A stretch of DNA of 64,000 nt from the NCBI RefSeq assembly GCF_000970025.1, contig NZ_CP009528.1, positions 1,785,168 through 1,849,167 on the forward strand, in the 5' to 3' direction. Positions within the stretch are counted from its first letter, which is position 1. Every line of letters starts with the position of its first letter. The notes below the pieces were generated by a model. The model was not told where the DNA came from. It ran no database searches and saw only the letters and a list, made by a program, of their open reading frames with translations. Positions 2-16,518 of the stretch are shown here, one piece after another. The translations under genes and the position numbers were made by a program. This DNA is from Methanosarcina barkeri MS (GTDB lineage: Archaea; Halobacteriota; Methanosarcinia; Methanosarcinales; Methanosarcinaceae).

Positions 2-3016
<3,015 letters not shown>

Positions 3017-3033: not shown

Positions 3034-3720
3034 ATGGAGAATTATCTGGTAGTAGCAGCATTTGTCATAGCGGAATTTTTGGGAGCTTTAATTTATTTCA
3101 AAACAGAAGATTCTGTGAAAAGAACGTTGTTGACCTGTCTTGGACTTGGTTTTGCCATTGCAGTGGTTCTTCTGGATATTATCCCGGATGCTACTGAGGA
3201 TTTTTCAGCAGGATACTGGTTGATTGTGATTGGGTTCATTGCAATGGTTGTGGCAGGATTCTACACTAAAAGTGTTGGAAAGTATTCAGCCGTTTTAGGA
3301 TTAGCAATTCACAACATTGCAGAAGGCGTGATTATAACCACTGAGTTTGGACCGATTTCTCCGATTTTAGCAGTCGGAGCAATTCTGCACAAACTGCCAG
3401 AAGGAATGGTTTCCTTTTCATTACTAGATGAATTAGAAGACAAAACCAGGTTTGCAATTGCAGCTTTGATCGCATTGTTAATTCCAGTCGGTGCGATTGT
3501 ACCTATCTCTGACAGCATTACAAAACCGCTTATGGCGCTTAGTGCTGGTGTTATCCTTTATGTTGTAGGAAACCTGTTGATCACTATCATTTCCAAATAT
3601 TATGTAACTGAAATCGATAAAGGAAAACTAAGTAAAAAGCACGATCTAAATATAACTACGCTATCCTCTGTGGCGGTTTTCGGAGCAGTAATAGCCTGGA
3701 TATCCTGTTTGATGGCGTAA
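3034..3720 (+). CDS. ZIP-family metal transporter inside the vnf cluster
   Basis: This is a 228-residue polytopic inner-membrane protein with about seven to eight hydrophobic helices. The paired ZIP metal-site motifs are present: HNIAEG in one helix and HKLPEGM in the next, about 27 residues later. ZIP proteins move divalent metal (Zn2+, Fe2+, Mn2+) into the cytoplasm. The gene lies 17 bases after vnfK with a GGAGGC ribosome site, so it is very probably co-transcribed with vnfDGK. Its place suggests supply of iron or another metal for cofactor synthesis, but the substrate cannot be read from sequence. Vanadate is an oxyanion and not a usual ZIP substrate. Confidence 0.88.
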   Translation: MENYLVVAAFVIAEFLGALIYFKTEDSVKRTLLTCLGLGFAIAVVLLDIIPDATEDFSAGYWLIVIGFIAMVVAGFYTKSVGKYSAVLGLAIHNIAEGVIITTEFGPISPILAVGAILHKLPEGMVSFSLLDELEDKTRFAIAALIALLIPVGAIVPISDSITKPLMALSAGVILYVVGNLLITIISKYYVTEIDKGKLSKKHDLNITTLSSVAVFGAVIAWISCLMA

Positions 3721-7277: not shown

Positions 7278-8417
7278 ATGAACAATAAAACAATAGTTAT
7301 TCTATTTGTTGCAATCACGGCAGTATTAGTTTTCACCGGCTGTACGGGAGAAAAAATCAGTCAGGTGGCACAGGATAATACTACAGAGGTATCCACTTCA
7401 AACGATAAAAATGTGGAAAATGCGACAAACGTATCCACTTCAAACGATAAAAGTGGGGAAACTAGAATTGTTACTGATTCGGCAGGCAGACAAGTAGCAG
7501 TTCCTATAAAAGTGGAAAGAGTTGCAGATACCTGGATGGGACATAATGAAGTGCTGGCTATGCTTGGAGCTGATGACAGGCTTGTTGCAACTATGTTCAG
7601 CTCCAAAAAAAGACCATGGGCGTATAAAGTTTGCCCGGCCTATTATAATGCTGTAACACTCAGCCCAACATATGATGTGGAAGCTTTGCTTGCTACCAAG
7701 CCAGATGTTGTTTTCATGCCAAGCAGAGATAAAAATATCGAGAAAGTATCCGCTCTTGGAGTCCCTGTTGTAGAGGTAAGTTTTACAGATTTTGATTCTA
7801 TGAAAAAATGTTTTTCAGATACTGCGAATGCTTTGGGAGACGAAGAGGCTTTAGAACGTTCACAGAAATATAATGCATATCTGGATAGCAAATTAGAATT
7901 GGTAAGAAATATTTCATCCAGAATACCTTACGACGAAAGGCCAAAAGTTCTCCATCTCGTATCACTGTCACCTTTGTGCGTAGATGGTGGCGGAAATATC
8001 ATCAGTGATTGGATTGAAGCTGCAGGAGGCATCAATGCTGCTGAAGAAGTAAAAGGTGGTATTATGCAGGAAGTTTCAATGGAACAAATCTTGAAGTGGA
8101 ATCCTGATATGATTATTCTTAGTGTGAATGCCAAATCTGAAGAAAAAGAGAAGATAATGAATAGCGAGTCCTGGAAGAAGGTTAAAGCAGTTCAAAATAA
8201 CAATGTGTTTGTAAATCCAGAAGGAGCGTTCATATGGAGTCGAGCCGGAGCAGAACAAGCTCTTCAGATTCAATGGGCTGCAAAAACCATCAATCCGGAT
8301 ACGTTTCAATCCATTGATATAAACAATGAAACAAAGTGGTTCTACAAGACCTTTTTTGATTACGAGCTTACAGATGAGGATGTTCAAAAAATTTTGAATG
8401 CACAGGCTCCAGATTAA
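7278..8417 (+). CDS. Lipoprotein substrate-binding protein of an ABC importer (FecB/BtuF type)
   Basis: This 379-residue protein starts with a hydrophobic signal and a lipobox-like FTGCTG with Cys22, so it is probably a membrane-anchored extracellular receptor. A Ser/Thr/Asn-rich linker with a duplicated VSTSNDK follows. The mature part fits the periplasmic-binding family that serves iron-siderophore, cobalamin and other metal-chelate importers (RIVTDSAGRQVAVPIKVERV, then KWNPDMIILS). No ATPase or permease adjoins it on this strand; the nearest are the minus-strand pair at 11411-13257. Its place behind the vnf genes suggests import of a metal needed for nitrogenase, which is inference. A 137-base gap precedes it, with a GAGGTACC ribosome site. 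Confidence 0.85.
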   Translation: MNNKTIVILFVAITAVLVFTGCTGEKISQVAQDNTTEVSTSNDKNVENATNVSTSNDKSGETRIVTDSAGRQVAVPIKVERVADTWMGHNEVLAMLGADDRLVATMFSSKKRPWAYKVCPAYYNAVTLSPTYDVEALLATKPDVVFMPSRDKNIEKVSALGVPVVEVSFTDFDSMKKCFSDTANALGDEEALERSQKYNAYLDSKLELVRNISSRIPYDERPKVLHLVSLSPLCVDGGGNIISDWIEAAGGINAAEEVKGGIMQEVSMEQILKWNPDMIILSVNAKSEEKEKIMNSESWKKVKAVQNNNVFVNPEGAFIWSRAGAEQALQIQWAAKTINPDTFQSIDINNETKWFYKTFFDYELTDEDVQKILNAQAPD

Positions 8418-9281: not shown

Positions 9282-10175
9282 TTAAAGATTAGACACCAAA
9301 GACCCAACTACTGGCTTATATGGGAACAATGTCCTTTCACTTGCTCTTGAGACCATTTCAGCCAGAAACGGCAAAGCTTCAAGCTCAATTCCACAATCGT
9401 AGTTGTAAAAACGTTTTAATGAAAATGCTGTCTCTTCCATTGAGGCATTTCCAGCACGTTCCCCTAGCCCTGTTACTGTTACACTTGCAAACTTTGCTCC
9501 CGCTTTATATGCTGCCAGGGTATTTGCTACGGCCAGGCCGAAATCATTATGCGCATGAATTTCAACAGGAAGAGGGTTATGATCTGCAATTTCTTTTATT
9601 TTGCGATATGTTGTAAAATGGTCCAGGCATCCTACGGTATCCGAATATCGGATTCTTATTGCACCGTAAGAAGCTGCAATATCTGCATATTGAAGAAAAA
9701 ATTCTGGATCTGCCCTTGAGGCATCTTCAGCTCCTATAATAATCGTTACCCCGTAGTTTTGGAGATATTCCATGCATTTTTTCAATTGGTCCAGCACCCA
9801 GGTTCGGCTTTTTTGGAGTTTATGTTCAATATGCAGATCGGATACCGGCAAAGACACATGAACAAATTTAAATCCGCAATCAATAGACGCCTTTAAATCT
9901 TCTAAATTTGCTCTGTTCCATGCAATAAGGTTCGATTTTATCGGCAGGTTGAGCATTAGTTTCAGGTCTTCACATTCCTGTTTTCCCATAGCAGGAATGC
10001 CAGCTTCAATCCATTTCACTTTTGCTTTATCTAAAGCCAAAATTATATTCATTCTTTCTTCAACCGAAAACACAACACCTGCAGATTGTTCCCCATCACG
10101 CAATGTGGTGTCAATGATTTCAAAGCCTTCATTTCTAATCACAGGAGATTTCTCCTTTAATTGATAAGTGGACAT
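9282..10175 (-). CDS. nifV: Homocitrate synthase catalytic subunit, NifV-alpha type (no C-terminal domain)
   Basis: This 297-residue protein is a complete TIM-barrel half of a homocitrate/isopropylmalate synthase. The metal and substrate residues are visible: [10 protein letters not shown] (residues 21-30) and [10 protein letters not shown] with His207 and His209, then [13 protein letters not shown]. It ends shortly after the barrel and lacks the C-terminal communication and dimer region of full NifV. The upstream gene supplies that region, overlapping by 41 bases. This arrangement matches the split nifV-omega/nifV-alpha pair known from Clostridium pasteurianum. Homocitrate is the organic ligand of the nitrogenase cofactor, so the pair fits the vnf cluster it faces. 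Confidence 0.85.
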
Positions 10176-11325
10176 TAGATTCTTTTATCGCTTCCATATG
10201 TAAATTATAAAGAGTTTTAAGCTGAGCATCTGTCACCGGTTTTTTTTGCAGAACCGCTGTATGCCTTACTTTATCAAGCAGTGTAGCTGCTTCCTGCGGA
10301 CTAAGAGACAGATCCAGTTGTCGAAATTTTTGTGTTAAGGATGCTGTTCCTGAGTGTTTTCCTATCACTAAAAACCTGCTTAGACCAACTTCTTCAGGCT
10401 TGATCGCTTCATATAAATTTGGATTTTTGATAATACCGTCAACATGGATACCGGATTCGTGTGCGAATACATTTTTTCCTATAATGGCTTTTTCTCCGGG
10501 CAATATAATGCCAGCCCTGTGTAAAATGTTCTCACAATCTGCTGCAATAGTATAACCATTAGGTACCTGTTCATTTTTCCACAAATGCCTTGCTGCCATT
10601 AAGACTTCTTCCATGGCTGCTACTCCTGGAATCCCAATACCGCTAACTGCCGTTGCGACATACTCAACGCCTGCCCGTAATGCTGAAAGCGTATTGGCAG
10701 TAGCCATACCATAATTATTGCATCCCATGTATTCAACAGGACATTGAGCCATATCCGTGAAAAGATTAAGTTTATTATAAGTAGTGAAAGGGTCCATTTT
10801 CCCGTTTACATCGCCCAGTATCAACCTTTTTATCTCGTACTCAGCAATGAAGGGATCTAATATATCTACTATATTTACTTCTTCTACTGGGAATTCCAGT
10901 GCATTATCAATACTTAGATAAATTTCCTGATTATTACTACAAACTGTTTGCAGTACATGTTCAGTTAGTTTAAGTTTATCGTGTATGGAGGCAAATGGAT
11001 CCAGAGAAATATTGATTACTATTTTTGAAAACCCGAGCTTTTTCGCCTTGTATACCTCTTGCTCTGAACATTCCACTCTACATCTTAAATTTTCCAAAAG
11101 GTCATCGGTCTTAAATTTAACCATTTTTTTATCTAATTTAACCATACTTGTCTTTAATTTGACCACGTTTGTCTCTAAACTGCTCAAAGAAACATCTGCC
11201 ACGTCCAGTGAATACTTCTTTAAAACAGACAGAATAAACTTAAAATCGGCAGGATCATTAAATCCAAGGCGTAGTATCTCGTTTATTGTATAATCCACAA
11301 TTGAAATTTTATTGTTTTCCTTCAA
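10135..11325 (-). CDS. nifV: Homocitrate synthase accessory subunit, NifV-omega type (degenerate barrel plus C-terminal domain)
   Basis: This 396-residue protein is homologous to homocitrate synthase over its length. The first half has lost catalytic residues: the DTTLRDGEQ segment is replaced by VDYTINEILRLGF, the HxHND metal motif reads YMGCNNYG, and GLGERAGN reads GIGIPGVA. The second half keeps the regions missing from its neighbour, including NVFAHESGIHVDGI, VIGKHSG and a helical C-terminus. It should therefore pair with the catalytic alpha subunit to form one enzyme. A Lys/Val-rich insert with repeated VKLKTSMVKLDKKMVKFK occurs near residues 54-71. It is the first gene of this minus-strand pair. 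Confidence 0.83.
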   Translation of the reverse strand: MKENNKISIVDYTINEILRLGFNDPADFKFILSVLKKYSLDVADVSLSSLETNVVKLKTSMVKLDKKMVKFKTDDLLENLRCRVECSEQEVYKAKKLGFSKIVINISLDPFASIHDKLKLTEHVLQTVCSNNQEIYLSIDNALEFPVEEVNIVDILDPFIAEYEIKRLILGDVNGKMDPFTTYNKLNLFTDMAQCPVEYMGCNNYGMATANTLSALRAGVEYVATAVSGIGIPGVAAMEEVLMAARHLWKNEQVPNGYTIAADCENILHRAGIILPGEKAIIGKNVFAHESGIHVDGIIKNPNLYEAIKPEEVGLSRFLVIGKHSGTASLTQKFRQLDLSLSPQEAATLLDKVRHTAVLQKKPVTDAQLKTLYNLHMEAIKESNVHLSIKGEISCD

Positions 11326-11410: not shown

Positions 11411-12223
11411 TCAGGAAAATCCTGCATCCACATGTTGTTGTATTTGCATAGGAATACATGCTCTTCTATGCTCATCTACATCTATAATTCTAACATCAAT
11501 TCCATAGACCTGTTTCATATTATGTTCAGTGACAACAATTTCCGGTTTTCCTGTTTCCATAATTGTGCCCTGATTCATGATAGCTACCTTATTACAGGAT
11601 AAAAAGGCGTGGTCTGGAAAATGTGAAGTCATTACAACCGATAGCCCAGTTTTAGATAATTCCTTTATGACTTTGAGCGTTCGTATCTGGTTCCCAAAAT
11701 CCAGATGGGATGTTGGTTCGTCGAGGAGAAGGATTTCGGGCTGTTGAGCTATTGCTCTTGCCATTAAAACAAGCTGTCTTTCACCACCACTGATCTCAGT
11801 GTAGGTTTTATTCTTTAGATGCAAGATTCCAAGCCTTTCCAGAGCCTCTTCAGCAATTTTATAATCTTTCGTTCCGGGAACAGATGTTAAACTCAAATGT
11901 GGAGTTCTGCCCATCAGAACTATATCGAGAACTGAAAACGCAAAAATTGAACTATTTGATTGCGGGATATATCCGATGATTTTTGCAAGTTCAGTTTCTT
12001 TCATTGAGTAAATACTCTTATTTTTCAGTAATATCTCGCCGCTTTTCAGTTTAAGCAAGCTGTTCATACATTTGATTAAAGTCGATTTTCCGGTCCCGTT
12101 AGGCCCCAGAATACATAGGACGTCCCCCTTCTCAACTGAGAGGTTTACGTTTTTGAAGACGTTTTTCTTTCTGTTGTAAGAGAACTCTGCATCCCTAATA
12201 TCCATAATATTGCTCATGACCAT
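11411..12223 (-). CDS. ABC importer ATPase (FecE/BtuD type)
   Basis: This 270-residue cytoplasmic nucleotide-binding subunit has Walker A GPNGTGKST, Q-loop YIPQSNSS, signature SGGERQLVLMARAI, Walker B ILLLDEPTSHLD and the switch His in MTSHFPDH. It is the iron-chelate/cobalamin/heme-type family. Its 5' end overlaps the permease gene by about 10 bases, so the two are coupled. MSNIMDIRD, two codons in, is an alternative start. No binding-protein gene adjoins on the same strand, but two lipoprotein receptors of the matching family lie at 7278 and 13918. The substrate is unknown; a metal for nitrogenase is a reasonable guess. Confidence 0.93.
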   Translation of the reverse strand: MVMSNIMDIRDAEFSYNRKKNVFKNVNLSVEKGDVLCILGPNGTGKSTLIKCMNSLLKLKSGEILLKNKSIYSMKETELAKIIGYIPQSNSSIFAFSVLDIVLMGRTPHLSLTSVPGTKDYKIAEEALERLGILHLKNKTYTEISGGERQLVLMARAIAQQPEILLLDEPTSHLDFGNQIRTLKVIKELSKTGLSVVMTSHFPDHAFLSCNKVAIMNQGTIMETGKPEIVVTEHNMKQVYGIDVRIIDVDEHRRACIPMQIQQHVDAGFS

Positions 12224-13257
12224 CCCTCGTAGCCTTTCTGGAGTAAGTATATGAAAACTGGTGCTCCTATTATGGCTGTTAGTATTCCCAGAGGAATTTC
12301 AATGGATGTGGCTGTTCTGCACACATCATCAACCAGCAGAAGGAAAGTAGCCCCCAGTGAAATGCTTGCAGGCAAAAGCTTTCTGTGATCCGGGCCTACG
12401 ATCATCCTGGCTGCGTGAGGTATTACAAGGCCCACCCAGCCGATGATACCACTTATGCTTACAGCGGAGGCTGTTAAGAACGTACAGCAAAAAATTACCA
12501 GCAGCCTCATTTTTTCTGTGTTTACGCCCATTGAACGCGCTTCATCATCCCCCATTGAAAGAACGTTAATTCTCCATCCAATAAGCAGTAGTGCTGTAAA
12601 TCCGATCAGAGCAGGCCCTATTATCATCAAGACACTGTTACTGTTAACTGCAGAGAGGCTCCCCATAAGCCAGTATACTATTTCTGGCAGTTTGCTGTCA
12701 GGATCTGCAAGGTATTTGATACACGAAATGAGAGCAGAAAAGAGTGCTGCGATAGCTATCCCTCCCAGTACCATCACCAAAATAGTATTGCCCCTAAGCT
12801 TTTTGCTGAGAGAGTAAGTGAGGATAACTGCAACGAGGCCGAATAAAAAGGCTGTAGCCTGAATCATTACTGCGGAAAAACTGAACAAAATAGCTATTGC
12901 AGCTCCGAAACCTGCACCTGATGAGACACCCAGTATATCTGGAGAGACCAGCGGGTTCTGGAAAGTTCCCTGAAAAGCAGCCCCTGAGATTGAGAGGGCA
13001 GCACCTACAATCATCGCAGATATTATACGTGGCAGACGTATATCCCAAACTACTGTATAAATGGTTGAATCCAAATTTGTAGTGATAGGCGCAAAAACCG
13101 ACACTATAGCCAGTATTACTTCCATAGGAGATACTGGATATCTGCCAATCATAAAAGATCCAAAAAACAAAAGTATTGGGAGTAAAATCAATGTGGTTGT
13201 TAAAGATATATTTCTAATGGTTTCCCTGTTTATTCGCCTGTTCATTATTCTTTCCAC
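12214..13257 (-). CDS. ABC importer permease (FecCD/BtuC type)
   Basis: This is a 347-residue membrane protein with about ten hydrophobic helices. Family motifs include LPRIISAMIVGAALSISGAAFQ, LVSPDILGVSSGAGFG near residues 106-121, GIIGWVGLVIPHAARMIVG and the C-terminal ETPLGIL-like block EIPLGILTAIIGAPVFIYLL. Two such subunits with two ATPases form an importer of the vitamin B12/siderophore class. The start may be the internal ATG giving MNRRINRE (13245). It diverges from the receptor gene at 13918 across a 660-base intergenic region, so the two may be co-regulated and work together. Confidence 0.93.
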   Translation of the reverse strand: MERIMNRRINRETIRNISLTTTLILLPILLFFGSFMIGRYPVSPMEVILAIVSVFAPITTNLDSTIYTVVWDIRLPRIISAMIVGAALSISGAAFQGTFQNPLVSPDILGVSSGAGFGAAIAILFSFSAVMIQATAFLFGLVAVILTYSLSKKLRGNTILVMVLGGIAIAALFSALISCIKYLADPDSKLPEIVYWLMGSLSAVNSNSVLMIIGPALIGFTALLLIGWRINVLSMGDDEARSMGVNTEKMRLLVIFCCTFLTASAVSISGIIGWVGLVIPHAARMIVGPDHRKLLPASISLGATFLLLVDDVCRTATSIEIPLGILTAIIGAPVFIYLLQKGYEGWS

Positions 13258-13680
13258 ACCAAACGTTTACAAATTATCCGTGGTTTCTTTCGGAGTATCT
13301 TTTTCAAGCTCGCTCATTGAGTTCAAATTGTAGTTAGTTTGAGGCTTCAACTACTGGTTTTCTGTTTGACTATGTGAATTTTGTGTGTTCTATTTTAATT
13401 TCTCCTGTACTGTTTATTTCTCAATTTGAATTTCTTTGAACTTTTCTTAGGCGTTATGTTCAATTAAACATAACAAATTATATATGTTAAAATACCAGTA
13501 ATCAATTTCCTATACAATAATATAAATAATTTACTACAAACTCGCTTTCTTACCGTGCCTTCGTGCGAATAAAAAAGAGTTAATAGAAGCACCTCAGTTG
13601 GAAAGGTATGTTCTTTTTTAATCCGGTCGCTATCTCTTTTTTGCTTTTGATCCCTGCAGCCATTTCTTTTTTGTGATTTA

Positions 13681-13893
13681 TTCATACCTTCCTTTTGAAT
13701 AACATATTTCAACTGAAAACTTGAAAGGTCAATTTATGAAATAACTATATATATAAGATAATCGGTAATTGATTTCTGTATTAATTAAATATAATATTTG
13801 TTATGTCTAAGGGTACATATCACATATCAACTGTAGTATAAAATTTTAAAGTAGTATCCAAAGAAGTAAAATCGTAGGTTTTGGGATGGACTC
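13681..13893 (+). promoter_or_regulatory. Upstream region copy A (duplicated at 15290-15501) with TATA element and leader hairpin
   Basis: This ~212-bp stretch before the second binding-protein gene is repeated almost base for base before the gene at 15556. Shared blocks include ATATTTCAACTGAAAACTTG, GGTAATTGATTTCTGTATTA, a TATA-like TTAAATATA near 13785, and the leader AGTAGTATCCAAAGAAGTAA. In the leader TATCCAAA (from 13855) can pair with TTTTGGGAT (13879-13887), giving a small stem about 30 bases before the start codon. The shared sequence implies a common regulator or RNA element; its signal is unknown. Confidence 0.7.
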
Positions 13894-13917
13894 AAAAAAT
13901 AATGAAGGGCTATCAAG

Positions 13918-15054
13918 ATGAGAACAACAAAAAGGCAATTAAGTTTGTTTATCGTGCTGTGTCTGTTAATAACACTATCCATACTTCTTGTAAGTGGATG
14001 TTCACAGAAAACAAACGATGTTATGGATACGACATCAAATCCCAAAACTGAGATAACTGCTGCAACAAATATTGAGCAAGAAACAACAATGTCGGACACT
14101 GCACTGTCAGGTACTCGGGTAATTACCGATTTAGCAGGCAGAAATATTACATTGCCTGCTGATATTACTAGGATTTCAGTGTTACATCCGATACCGTGCC
14201 AAATGGTCTGGAGACTGGCGCCGGAAAAGCTTGTGAGCGCGGACAAGCAGTTTACTGAACGACTAGAATTTATGTCAGATAACGAAGAAAAGAGGCTGCT
14301 GGCTCTTCCGATTAATGGAGAATTCCACAGTGACATGAATGTGGAAGATCTTTTAGCAGTCAGTCCACAAGTAGTAATAACGTTAACAAAGGATACGAAA
14401 ATCGAATCCGAACAAAAAAAAGTTGGCATTCCATTCGTTGCTGCGTCAAAAGATACACTTGAAGAGATTGCAGATTCATGGAGATTTATCGGTAAAATTG
14501 TTGGAAATGAAAAAGAGGGAAACGAGCTTGGGGATTACTGGGATGAAACCATCAAAAAGGTTACCAATCAAACCTCGAAAATTAATGACAGTGATAAGCT
14601 CAAAGTATATTATGCGCAACCAGATGTCACCAAGACAGTTGGGTCCAGAACCATTATGGCGTCTATCATCAGTTTGGCGGGAGGCATAAGCTTCATGGAA
14701 GCAAATCCGCAAATGGAATCGGCCAATACAAGTGAAGAAATCCAGGTCTCACTGGAACAAATCTATCAGTGGAATCCAGACGTTATTATTACTAAAACTG
14801 CGAAAGGTCGTGATGAAATTCTCTCGAAAGACGCCTGGAAAGATATTGCTGCCGTAAAGAATAAGCGCGTTTACGCATCTACAAAATACGAGATGCTTGA
14901 CCGGACACAATCACTGATGGGACTTTTGTGGACCGCGAAAGTGCTTTATCCGGATAAAGTAAAAATTGACCTGGACAAAGAGGTAAAAACATTTTATTCA
15001 AAAGTATATCTTGATAATAACGTGACTAATGATCAAATCAGTCAGACAAATTAA
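13918..15054 (+). CDS. Second lipoprotein substrate-binding protein (FecB/BtuF type)
   Basis: This 378-residue protein has an N-terminal signal (hydrophobic residues about 9-27) with a lipobox-like LLVSGCS, then a Thr-rich linker and a metal-chelate-type binding domain (RVITDLAGRNITLPADI; YQWNPDVIIT). It differs clearly from the receptor at 7278, with only distant similarity. It diverges from the permease/ATPase pair and is the closest candidate receptor for that importer. The start has AAGGGCTATCAAG upstream. A 12-base piece of its 3' end (TCAGTCAGACAAATTAAT) is repeated straight after the stop. Confidence 0.87.
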   Translation: MRTTKRQLSLFIVLCLLITLSILLVSGCSQKTNDVMDTTSNPKTEITAATNIEQETTMSDTALSGTRVITDLAGRNITLPADITRISVLHPIPCQMVWRLAPEKLVSADKQFTERLEFMSDNEEKRLLALPINGEFHSDMNVEDLLAVSPQVVITLTKDTKIESEQKKVGIPFVAASKDTLEEIADSWRFIGKIVGNEKEGNELGDYWDETIKKVTNQTSKINDSDKLKVYYAQPDVTKTVGSRTIMASIISLAGGISFMEANPQMESANTSEEIQVSLEQIYQWNPDVIITKTAKGRDEILSKDAWKDIAAVKNKRVYASTKYEMLDRTQSLMGLLWTAKVLYPDKVKIDLDKEVKTFYSKVYLDNNVTNDQISQTN

Positions 15055-15104
15055 TAAAAATCAGTCAGACAAATTAATTTCATTCGAATACTCCGCTAGC
15101 TTGT

Positions 15105-15219
15105 AGGCTGTCCGATAATTATTGAAGTAATAAAAACATGCTAAAAAGAAAGCAAATAAGGCCTTTAAATCAAAAAAGAAGGAATTCAATAATTACCAGA
15201 GGTAATTGTCAGACAGCCT
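15105..15219. mobile_element. MITE-like element with 17-bp terminal inverted repeats
   Basis: The left end AGGCTGTCCGATAATTA (15105-15121) and the right end TAATTGTCAGACAGCCT (15203-15219) are inverted copies at 15 of 17 positions. An inner pair TTATTGAA/TTCAATAA extends the symmetry. The 115-bp body has no coding frame, which fits a non-autonomous transposon remnant. Confidence 0.65.
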
Positions 15220-15289
15220 GCTTGCAGCGAGGTGCACCAGCACAACTTTGATTTTTGATTCTGCCTTTATCTTTTTTTTGCGACTGATT

Positions 15290-15501
15290 TTCATAGTTTC
15301 CTTGTGAATAAGATATTTCAACTGAAAACTTGAAAGATTAGTTTAATAAATAACTATATATACTAAATAATAGGTAATTGATTTCTGTATTAGTTAAATA
15401 TACTTTTTGTTATATTAGAGAGAACATCTCACATATTAATTGTGGTATGAAATTTAAAAGTAGTATCCAAAGAAGTAAATCGTAAGTTTTGGGATAGACT
15501 C
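15290..15501 (+). promoter_or_regulatory. Upstream region copy B (duplicate of 13681-13893)
   Basis: This is the second copy of the duplicated upstream region. It keeps the GGTAATTGATTTCTGTATTA block, TTAAATATA and the leader hairpin TATCCAAA (from 15464) with TTTTGGGATA (15487-15496). Its distance to the downstream ATG is about 60 bases, versus 30 in copy A. Differences are scattered single bases, so the leader is conserved while both copies have drifted. Confidence 0.7.
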
Positions 15502-15555: not shown

Positions 15556-16518
15556 ATGTTAGCTGTTGAAACAAGTGGACTCAAAGGAATAACGAGCTTT
15601 ACCACATATGATAGCGGCGAACTGAAGGACTGTAAGCTTGAAGAGTATAATTTAATTCACACAAGGTACGGAGATCTTGTTCCACAATATGGTGATCTAG
15701 GATTTCGAAGAAAGCAGCTAGCAGTATTGTCTTTCTACAAAAGTGGAAAAGTTAAAAATATCTCATTAGAGCAGCAGACTGAAATAAGCACACCAATAGG
15801 AACATTTCCGGCAGAACTGGTCACTTTTTTTGAGGATGGATCAATCAATAGTTTGTTCCCTCTAAACGGCCAGATCAGTGGTTTCTGGTCAGAGGAAGAA
15901 GAAGGCGAACTTGCACAAAAATTCCATTTTTCATTCCCGTTTGGGGAATTTTATGCAAAAATAATAGGTTTACGGTTTTATCCGGACGGAAGAGTCAGAA
16001 GCCTGATTTTGTGGCCGAATGAACGAATCATAATTGACACACCTGCAGGAAAAATGCCAGTTAGAATAGGATTTAAGCTTTTTGAAGATGGGAGCATAGA
16101 ATCAGTAGAACCTGCAGAGCCGTTCCCGATTGAAACCCCCATTGGTTCAATAAATGCATACGATGCGGATGCACTTGGTATCGATGCGGATAAAAACTCC
16201 GTGTGTTTTGACGAAAGAGGTAAATTAATTTCTCTCATTACTTTCGACATCATTACAGTCCGGAAAAAAACCGGTGAAAAAGAACTAATATTCCCAACGT
16301 TAAGGCCGGGTTTGACAACTGAATTTGAAAAAGTGCCGATTAAATTGATCTTTGATGATGATACAGTAAGCATTGGTGATGCCAGAGCAAACGACTACAA
16401 TGATGACGCCAAAACAGCCAGCTACAAGATAGCTGAATGTACGTTCTTAATCATGCGTGGTAACTATATGGAAACAAAATCATGCGACGACTGTTCCAGT
16501 TGTCAGGGTTGTATGTAA
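15556..16518 (+). CDS. MORN-like repeat protein with Cys-rich C-terminal tail, function unknown
   Basis: This 320-residue soluble protein has no signal peptide. It contains at least five copies of a short pattern, F-x-x-D/S-G-x-[VIL]-x-S-[LIV]: FYKSGKVKNISL, FFEDGSINSLFPL, FYPDGRVRSLIL, LFEDGSIESVEP and FDERGKLISLI. This resembles MORN or YwqK-type beta-hairpin repeats. TPIGTFPAEL, TPAGKMPVRI and TPIGSINAY repeats alternate with them. The C-terminus is CDDCSSCQGCM, a likely metal- or cluster-binding tail. It shares its upstream control region with the binding protein at 13918, so it probably belongs to the same metal response. I do not recognise a characterised family. Confidence 0.75.
   Translation: MLAVETSGLKGITSFTTYDSGELKDCKLEEYNLIHTRYGDLVPQYGDLGFRRKQLAVLSFYKSGKVKNISLEQQTEISTPIGTFPAELVTFFEDGSINSLFPLNGQISGFWSEEEEGELAQKFHFSFPFGEFYAKIIGLRFYPDGRVRSLILWPNERIIIDTPAGKMPVRIGFKLFEDGSIESVEPAEPFPIETPIGSINAYDADALGIDADKNSVCFDERGKLISLITFDIITVRKKTGEKELIFPTLRPGLTTEFEKVPIKLIFDDDTVSIGDARANDYNDDAKTASYKIAECTFLIMRGNYMETKSCDDCSSCQGCM

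Follow-up and report, generated by a model that had tools for sequence, protein, structure and literature searches.

A repeated promoter region with ModE-type palindromes beside the vanadium-nitrogenase genes of Methanosarcina barkeri

Genes and repeats at the locus

The window, meaning the whole analysed stretch of 64,000 nucleotides from Methanosarcina barkeri MS, opens in a vanadium-nitrogenase cluster. The products of 80-1276 and 1631-3016 score above the curated cut-offs for VnfD and VnfK, and vnfH (L055) lies about 1.7 kb ahead of the window. A ZIP-family metal transporter gene (3034-3720) stands between vnfK and a vnfE-like gene. At 9282-11325, on the minus strand, a NifV-type homocitrate synthase is split into two genes, one matching the C-terminal part of the NifV model (10135-11325, model positions 139-365) and the other its N-terminal part (9282-10175, model positions 1-278).

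Transport genes follow. An ABC ATPase (11411-12223) and a FecCD-type permease (12214-13257), both on the minus strand, form an operon (11411-13257) that diverges from the gene of a Peripla_BP_2 binding protein on the plus strand (13918-15054). The permease has HI1471 (MolB) as its best solved-structure match (E 1.3e-76), and the binding protein has HI1472 (MolA) as its third match (E 6e-18). A second Peripla_BP_2 gene is found in the cluster at 7278-8417, with no ModE-type site among the window's best; both binding proteins may work with a single permease.

Beyond the binding-protein gene, the gene at 15556-16518 on the plus strand encodes a 320-aa protein that has no match in Pfam or NCBIfam. 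Its predicted fold is all-beta (mean pLDDT 79), and the model has no match in the PDB at E <= 0.001. The preliminary description of this DNA had termed the gene MORN-like, a name that the all-beta model, having no fold match, neither confirms nor replaces. In two other genomes the orthologs (L067 in G001, L063 in G014) stand directly behind a nifV-like or homoaconitase-like gene, as judged by eye. Neighbours of this kind elsewhere link the 15556 gene to homocitrate or nitrogenase genes independently of the copied promoter described below.

The control regions of these two plus-strand genes are repeats of each other. The first copy, upstream of the binding-protein gene, occupies 13681-13893, and the second, between that gene and 15556, occupies 15290-15501; they are 85% identical, each preceding an unrelated gene. 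Against the whole genome, blastn reports them as a single alignment over query bases 1-213 (85%, E 1.6e-64). An ungapped alignment covers 190 nt (13681-13870 and 15290-15479, 85%), followed by a 25-nt continuation at 92%. More diverged homology extends the second copy leftwards to about 15249 when the alignment is read by eye, giving it an approximate span of 15249-15501. The regions had been called near-identical, with unrelated coding regions behind them. Two copies do lie in these places, and the two proteins are unrelated: their best BLASTP match has E = 10, and one belongs to Peripla_BP_2 while the other falls in no Pfam family.

A third copy, inverted and missed in the preliminary description, lies on the minus strand at 13455-13531 (blastn, 75% identity over 77 bp, E 7.7e-5), where it makes up the promoter region of the divergently oriented FecCD permease/ATPase operon.

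A shared promoter layout

The three promoters were aligned together with their orthologs from four more species. Common to all three are a TATA box, a GGWAATTGATTnCTG block and a 22-bp palindrome, set at equal spacing. TATA-box-like sequences are found at 13520-13529 (minus strand) in the fecCD promoter, at 13745-13755 in the first copy, where the sequence is invariant across orthologs, and at 15354-15362 in the second. The block follows as GGAAATTGATTACTG at 13496-13510 (minus strand) and as GGTAATTGATTTCTG at 13764-13778 and 15373-15387. Transcription would start about 25 bp past the TATA box, within the GGWAAT part of the block; in the first copy the block overlaps this predicted start site. 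The palindrome begins about 54 bp downstream of the start of the TATA box.

The TATA element, a GGTAATTGATTTC block and the leader segments TATCCAAA and TTTTGGGAT had been reported for both copies, and all of them are found there. The two segments were thought to pair, so that the leader would be conserved as a structured RNA, either a riboswitch or a hairpin. Both arms are indeed present as sequence in both copies and are partly conserved across five species, yet nothing supports their pairing. Folding of the 142-nt leaders is no more stable than that of shuffled sequence (z +0.54 and +0.20), none of the proposed pairs shows a double change, and two pairs are broken, in two sequences each. 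RNAalifold found no covariation, a search of the whole window against Rfam gave no match, and the third copy has neither arm. A structured RNA is thus a most improbable explanation of the repeat.

One proposal is that the region is mainly a nitrogen-responsive promoter and that the GGTAATTGATTTC block is the operator of NrpR or of another nitrogen regulator. The genes do adjoin those of the vanadium nitrogenase, and the block does not vary among the copies and has a similar counterpart in vnfH. However, the reported NrpRI operator, GGTAn6TACC (PMC3177094), was not found in the three promoters with up to 1 mismatch, the shared block was not found in the nifH upstream region, and related blocks occur ahead of apparently unrelated genes. 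Nitrogen control as the main function is therefore quite improbable, though a nitrogen signal may act as a second input alongside ModE. The GGAAATnnGATTCTGTATTCC form of the block has few matches genome-wide, and these precede unrelated genes, so that no regulator can be named from them. A scan of the gap for sigma-70 promoters and terminators gave nothing that exceeded shuffled sequence.

Another repeated leader is found elsewhere in the genome, at three loci (L088, L092 and L093, around base 1501). There a TATA box, a GGAAAYAnGATTCCGTWWTYC block and the start of a similar small ORF recur.

The same layout and spacing are found at vnfH promoters, namely those of G000 and G003 and of one of the two vnfH-like genes in G001. 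They consist of a TATA box, GGAARTAnGAAnCTGTATTCC and the palindrome. Between the vnfH and binding-protein promoters of G000, 33 of 62 upstream bases are identical, a value matched by 6 of 2000 shuffles. In the same comparison the modA promoter scores at chance and that of fmdE only marginally. The composite promoter is thus characteristic of the vanadium-nitrogenase and transport group and is not a trait of all ModE targets.

The palindrome has the best form GTTATGTn8ACATAAC (22 bp). It is present as GTTATGTTTAATTGAACATAAC at 13453-13474 on the minus strand in the fecCD promoter and as GTTATGTCTAAGGGTACATATC at 13800-13821 in the first copy, both recovered by pattern search and weight matrix. 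A weaker version, GTTATATTAGAGAGAACATCTC, at 15409-15430 in the second copy, was recovered by the matrix. The pattern GTTATGTY-N6-RACATAAC is exact at fecCD, carries 2 mismatches at 13800 and is weaker at 15409, where the half-sites are degenerate (GTTATAT and ACATCTC). A first version of the pattern was too loose and was dropped, giving 421 matches against 493 in the control.

With 0-1 mismatch the pattern has 7 sites in M. barkeri MS. These lie upstream of modA-modB, fmdE, a FwdF-like polyferredoxin gene, two more Peripla_BP_2 genes, vnfH and the fecCD operon. When up to 2 mismatches are allowed, the count of 11 is hardly above the control (8). A weight matrix built from six sites, all outside the window, gives the three promoters the top three scores in the 64 kb, with 27.3, 15.6 and 10.9 bits against 8.1 for the next site. 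The fecCD site had seeded the search pattern, and its place in this order is therefore no independent result; the other two sites had not been used.

Across 31 genomes of the genus the exact palindrome occurs 43 times, and the reversed control 0 times. In the relatives, 29 of the 30 different sites checked adjoin molybdenum, tungsten or nitrogenase genes: FmdE-FwdF, ModA-ModB, VnfH and, in one case, a VnfD-like gene at a distance of 1.3 kb, with two of the ModA-like assignments resting on only 24% identity. At one exact palindrome (L099, base 1501, in G006) no gene for molybdenum, tungsten or nitrogenase was recognised nearby; its neighbours resemble, by eye, genes for a peptidyl-prolyl isomerase and for a protein of HTH type. 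A second, weaker palindrome with 2 mismatches (L058, base 1501, C2:1782742) lies upstream, between the vnfH promoter and a radical-SAM gene.

Conservation agrees with the action of a protein. In five species neither promoter, that of the binding protein or that of fecCD, shows any change in the core, GTTATG plus ACATA, whereas their spacers differ by pairwise means of 0.75 and 0.43, compared with 0.19-0.20 in the other promoter columns. Invariant half-sites around a freely varying spacer form the pattern of a protein footprint.

Origin of the second copy

Related genomes show how the second copy may have arisen. It is present in G000 and G004. In G003 the 15556 ortholog begins 103 bp past the binding-protein gene, in G030 the two genes are 292 bp apart, and in G028 the gap is longer; none of the three has a promoter copy there. 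Past the breakpoint, on its right, G000 has the leader CTCAAAGATGTAAAGC, matching TCTCAAATATATAAAGC in G030, whose leader is uninterrupted. From the absence of the copy in relatives and this match, it follows that the second copy was most likely inserted between the two neighbouring genes. The earlier view that the control region itself was copied is supported, since G000 and G004 carry a copy between genes that have none between them in G003 and G030. Through the insertion 15556 would have acquired a promoter of its own.

Between G000 and G004 the second-promoter sequences show 95% identity, and they branch outside both genomes' binding-protein promoters, which places the copying before the split between G000 and G004. 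This grouping, whose deeper placement has a support of 0.16, would also fit an ancestral second copy that G003, G030 and G028 have since lost. Such a history would have to account for three relatives without the copy, for the short gap of G003 (103 bp) and for the fit between the sequence right of the G000 breakpoint and the uninterrupted leader of G030. Ancestral presence followed by loss is accordingly unlikely.

The breakpoint carries a trace of a mobile element. Each copy ends on the right in a short sequence (TTTTGGGATGGACTC at 13879-13893 and TTTTGGGATAGACTC at 15487-15501, both on the plus strand). The first is an exact match to a dispersed MITE's right terminal repeat, the second is the corresponding MITE-like repeat, and the homology between the copies ends exactly there. 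This terminal repeat, TTTTGGGATRGACTC, also contains the 3' arm of the supposed hairpin. When one mismatch is allowed, TTTTGGGATNGACTC matches 77 sites genome-wide, while the control has 1. Many of these sites terminate complete MITEs about 130 bp long, and one locus contains remnants of an IS4/5-type transposase.

Compared with the IS5-like MITEs of the genome, both copies have the terminal repeat TTTTGGGATRGACTC exactly at their right end, whereas the left repeat shows at best a weak resemblance, by eye, and the copied segment contains no transposase. Because the segment stops exactly at the MITE-like repeat, the copying was probably caused by aberrant transposition or a microhomology event, in which a transposon end or microhomology would have taken part. 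The locus is a clear example, seen by comparing genomes, of promoter copying between two adjacent genes, with its breakpoint at a MITE-like end.

Two other repeats lie near the insertion. Just left of the promoter copy, 15108-15221 resembles a second kind of MITE, with an inverted repeat (arms 15111-15126 and 15185-15200) and flanks GGCTGTC and GACAGCC; it is present in G004 too. At 15035-15078, repeats of a 21-nt unit, AAATCAGTCAGACAAATTAAT, span the point where the binding-protein gene stops, including its stop codon, and G030 has more copies of the unit.

Proposed molybdenum control and the transporter

ModE is stated to control modABC in Methanosarcinales and to affect nitrogenases (PMC9765008); a ModE box or regulon in Archaea is attributed there to Studholme and Pau (2003). 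The E. coli ModE consensus is ATCGNTATATA-N6-TATATANCGAT (PMC545781). Like the box of E. coli modABCD, the palindrome described here is a 22-bp dyad with TAT(A/G)T half-sites and a central spacer, and the half-sites of both share GNTATNT. A site also lies upstream of modA in the same genome, which encodes a ModE-like protein. The half-site differs in reading GTTATGT and not GNTATAT, the palindromes stand downstream of the predicted start site, and the vnf-type promoters add a further conserved block.

The candidate regulator is a protein of 204 aa (L060, 1444-2058), the genome's one match to the ModE helix-turn-helix model TIGR00637 (E 1.3e-17, below the curated cut-off). It differs from ModE in having one Mop domain, which matches TIGR00638 above the cut-off, and it matches ModE among PDB structures. 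Judged by its sequence, its gene associations and the presence of this regulator, the palindrome is a ModE-type operator. The suggestion of a metal-responsive promoter made in the preliminary description thereby gains sequence evidence, whereas those of a nitrogen-responsive promoter and a structured RNA do not.

The repeated region is best read as one molybdenum-repressed promoter type of the vanadium-nitrogenase regulon, of which one copy was duplicated; we put the probability of this at about 0.8. Such a promoter would drive the FecCD/ATPase operon, the binding-protein gene and, by way of the later duplication, 15556, and the vnfH promoter has an equal layout. When molybdate (or tungstate) is plentiful, metal-loaded ModE would bind just downstream of the start site and repress. 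When molybdenum is scarce, the block would lift, and the transporter, the vanadium nitrogenase and the 15556 protein would be made together. Because ModE sites may activate too, repression is what we infer and not a property of the sites as such. Degenerate-pattern palindromes in the window occur at chance level and are not rarer. As the copied palindrome is weaker and such matches are no rarer than chance, 15556 is the one of the three for which molybdenum control is least assured.

The transporter resembles a known metal-oxyanion importer. HI1471 and HI1472 are parts of the H. influenzae molybdate/tungstate importer MolBC-A, whose molB gene is repressed by molybdate (PMC4031551). The permease is closest to HI1471 and the binding protein matches HI1472. 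In contrast to MolBC-A, the transporter here lies beside vanadium-nitrogenase genes, and its binding protein is in a separate, divergent transcription unit. The family also includes importers of vitamin B12, heme and siderophores.

In Anabaena variabilis, the vanadate importer VupABC is encoded beside the vnf genes and repressed by molybdate (PMC4284476). According to the same review, VupABC is the only characterised type of vanadate importer, and genes like it are absent from Methanosarcina barkeri (PMC4284476). The transport genes described here likewise adjoin vnf genes, while VupABC belongs to another, tungstate-importer-like family. A candidate importer is useful precisely because the VupABC type is reported absent from M. 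barkeri (PMC4284476). Tentatively, and with the odds still against it, the FecCD/MolA-like transporter might be the missing vanadate (or dual molybdenum/vanadium) importer for the Methanosarcina vanadium nitrogenase. It would be induced together with vnfH and 15556 by the molybdenum-repressed class of composite promoters, a transposon-end event having added a promoter copy as a new point of entry into the regulon.

Promoters with ModE boxes are already known, in Archaea as well, so the finding is ordinary in kind. What it adds is specific: a third copy, a composite layout of the vnfH type, the link to a transporter and the insertion of a promoter. An unexplained repeat becomes a testable regulon, with an operator, a candidate regulator, a candidate metal-oxyanion transporter and the 15556 protein. 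The candidate transporter and the 15556 protein should respond to molybdenum together with the vanadium nitrogenase of the methanogen.
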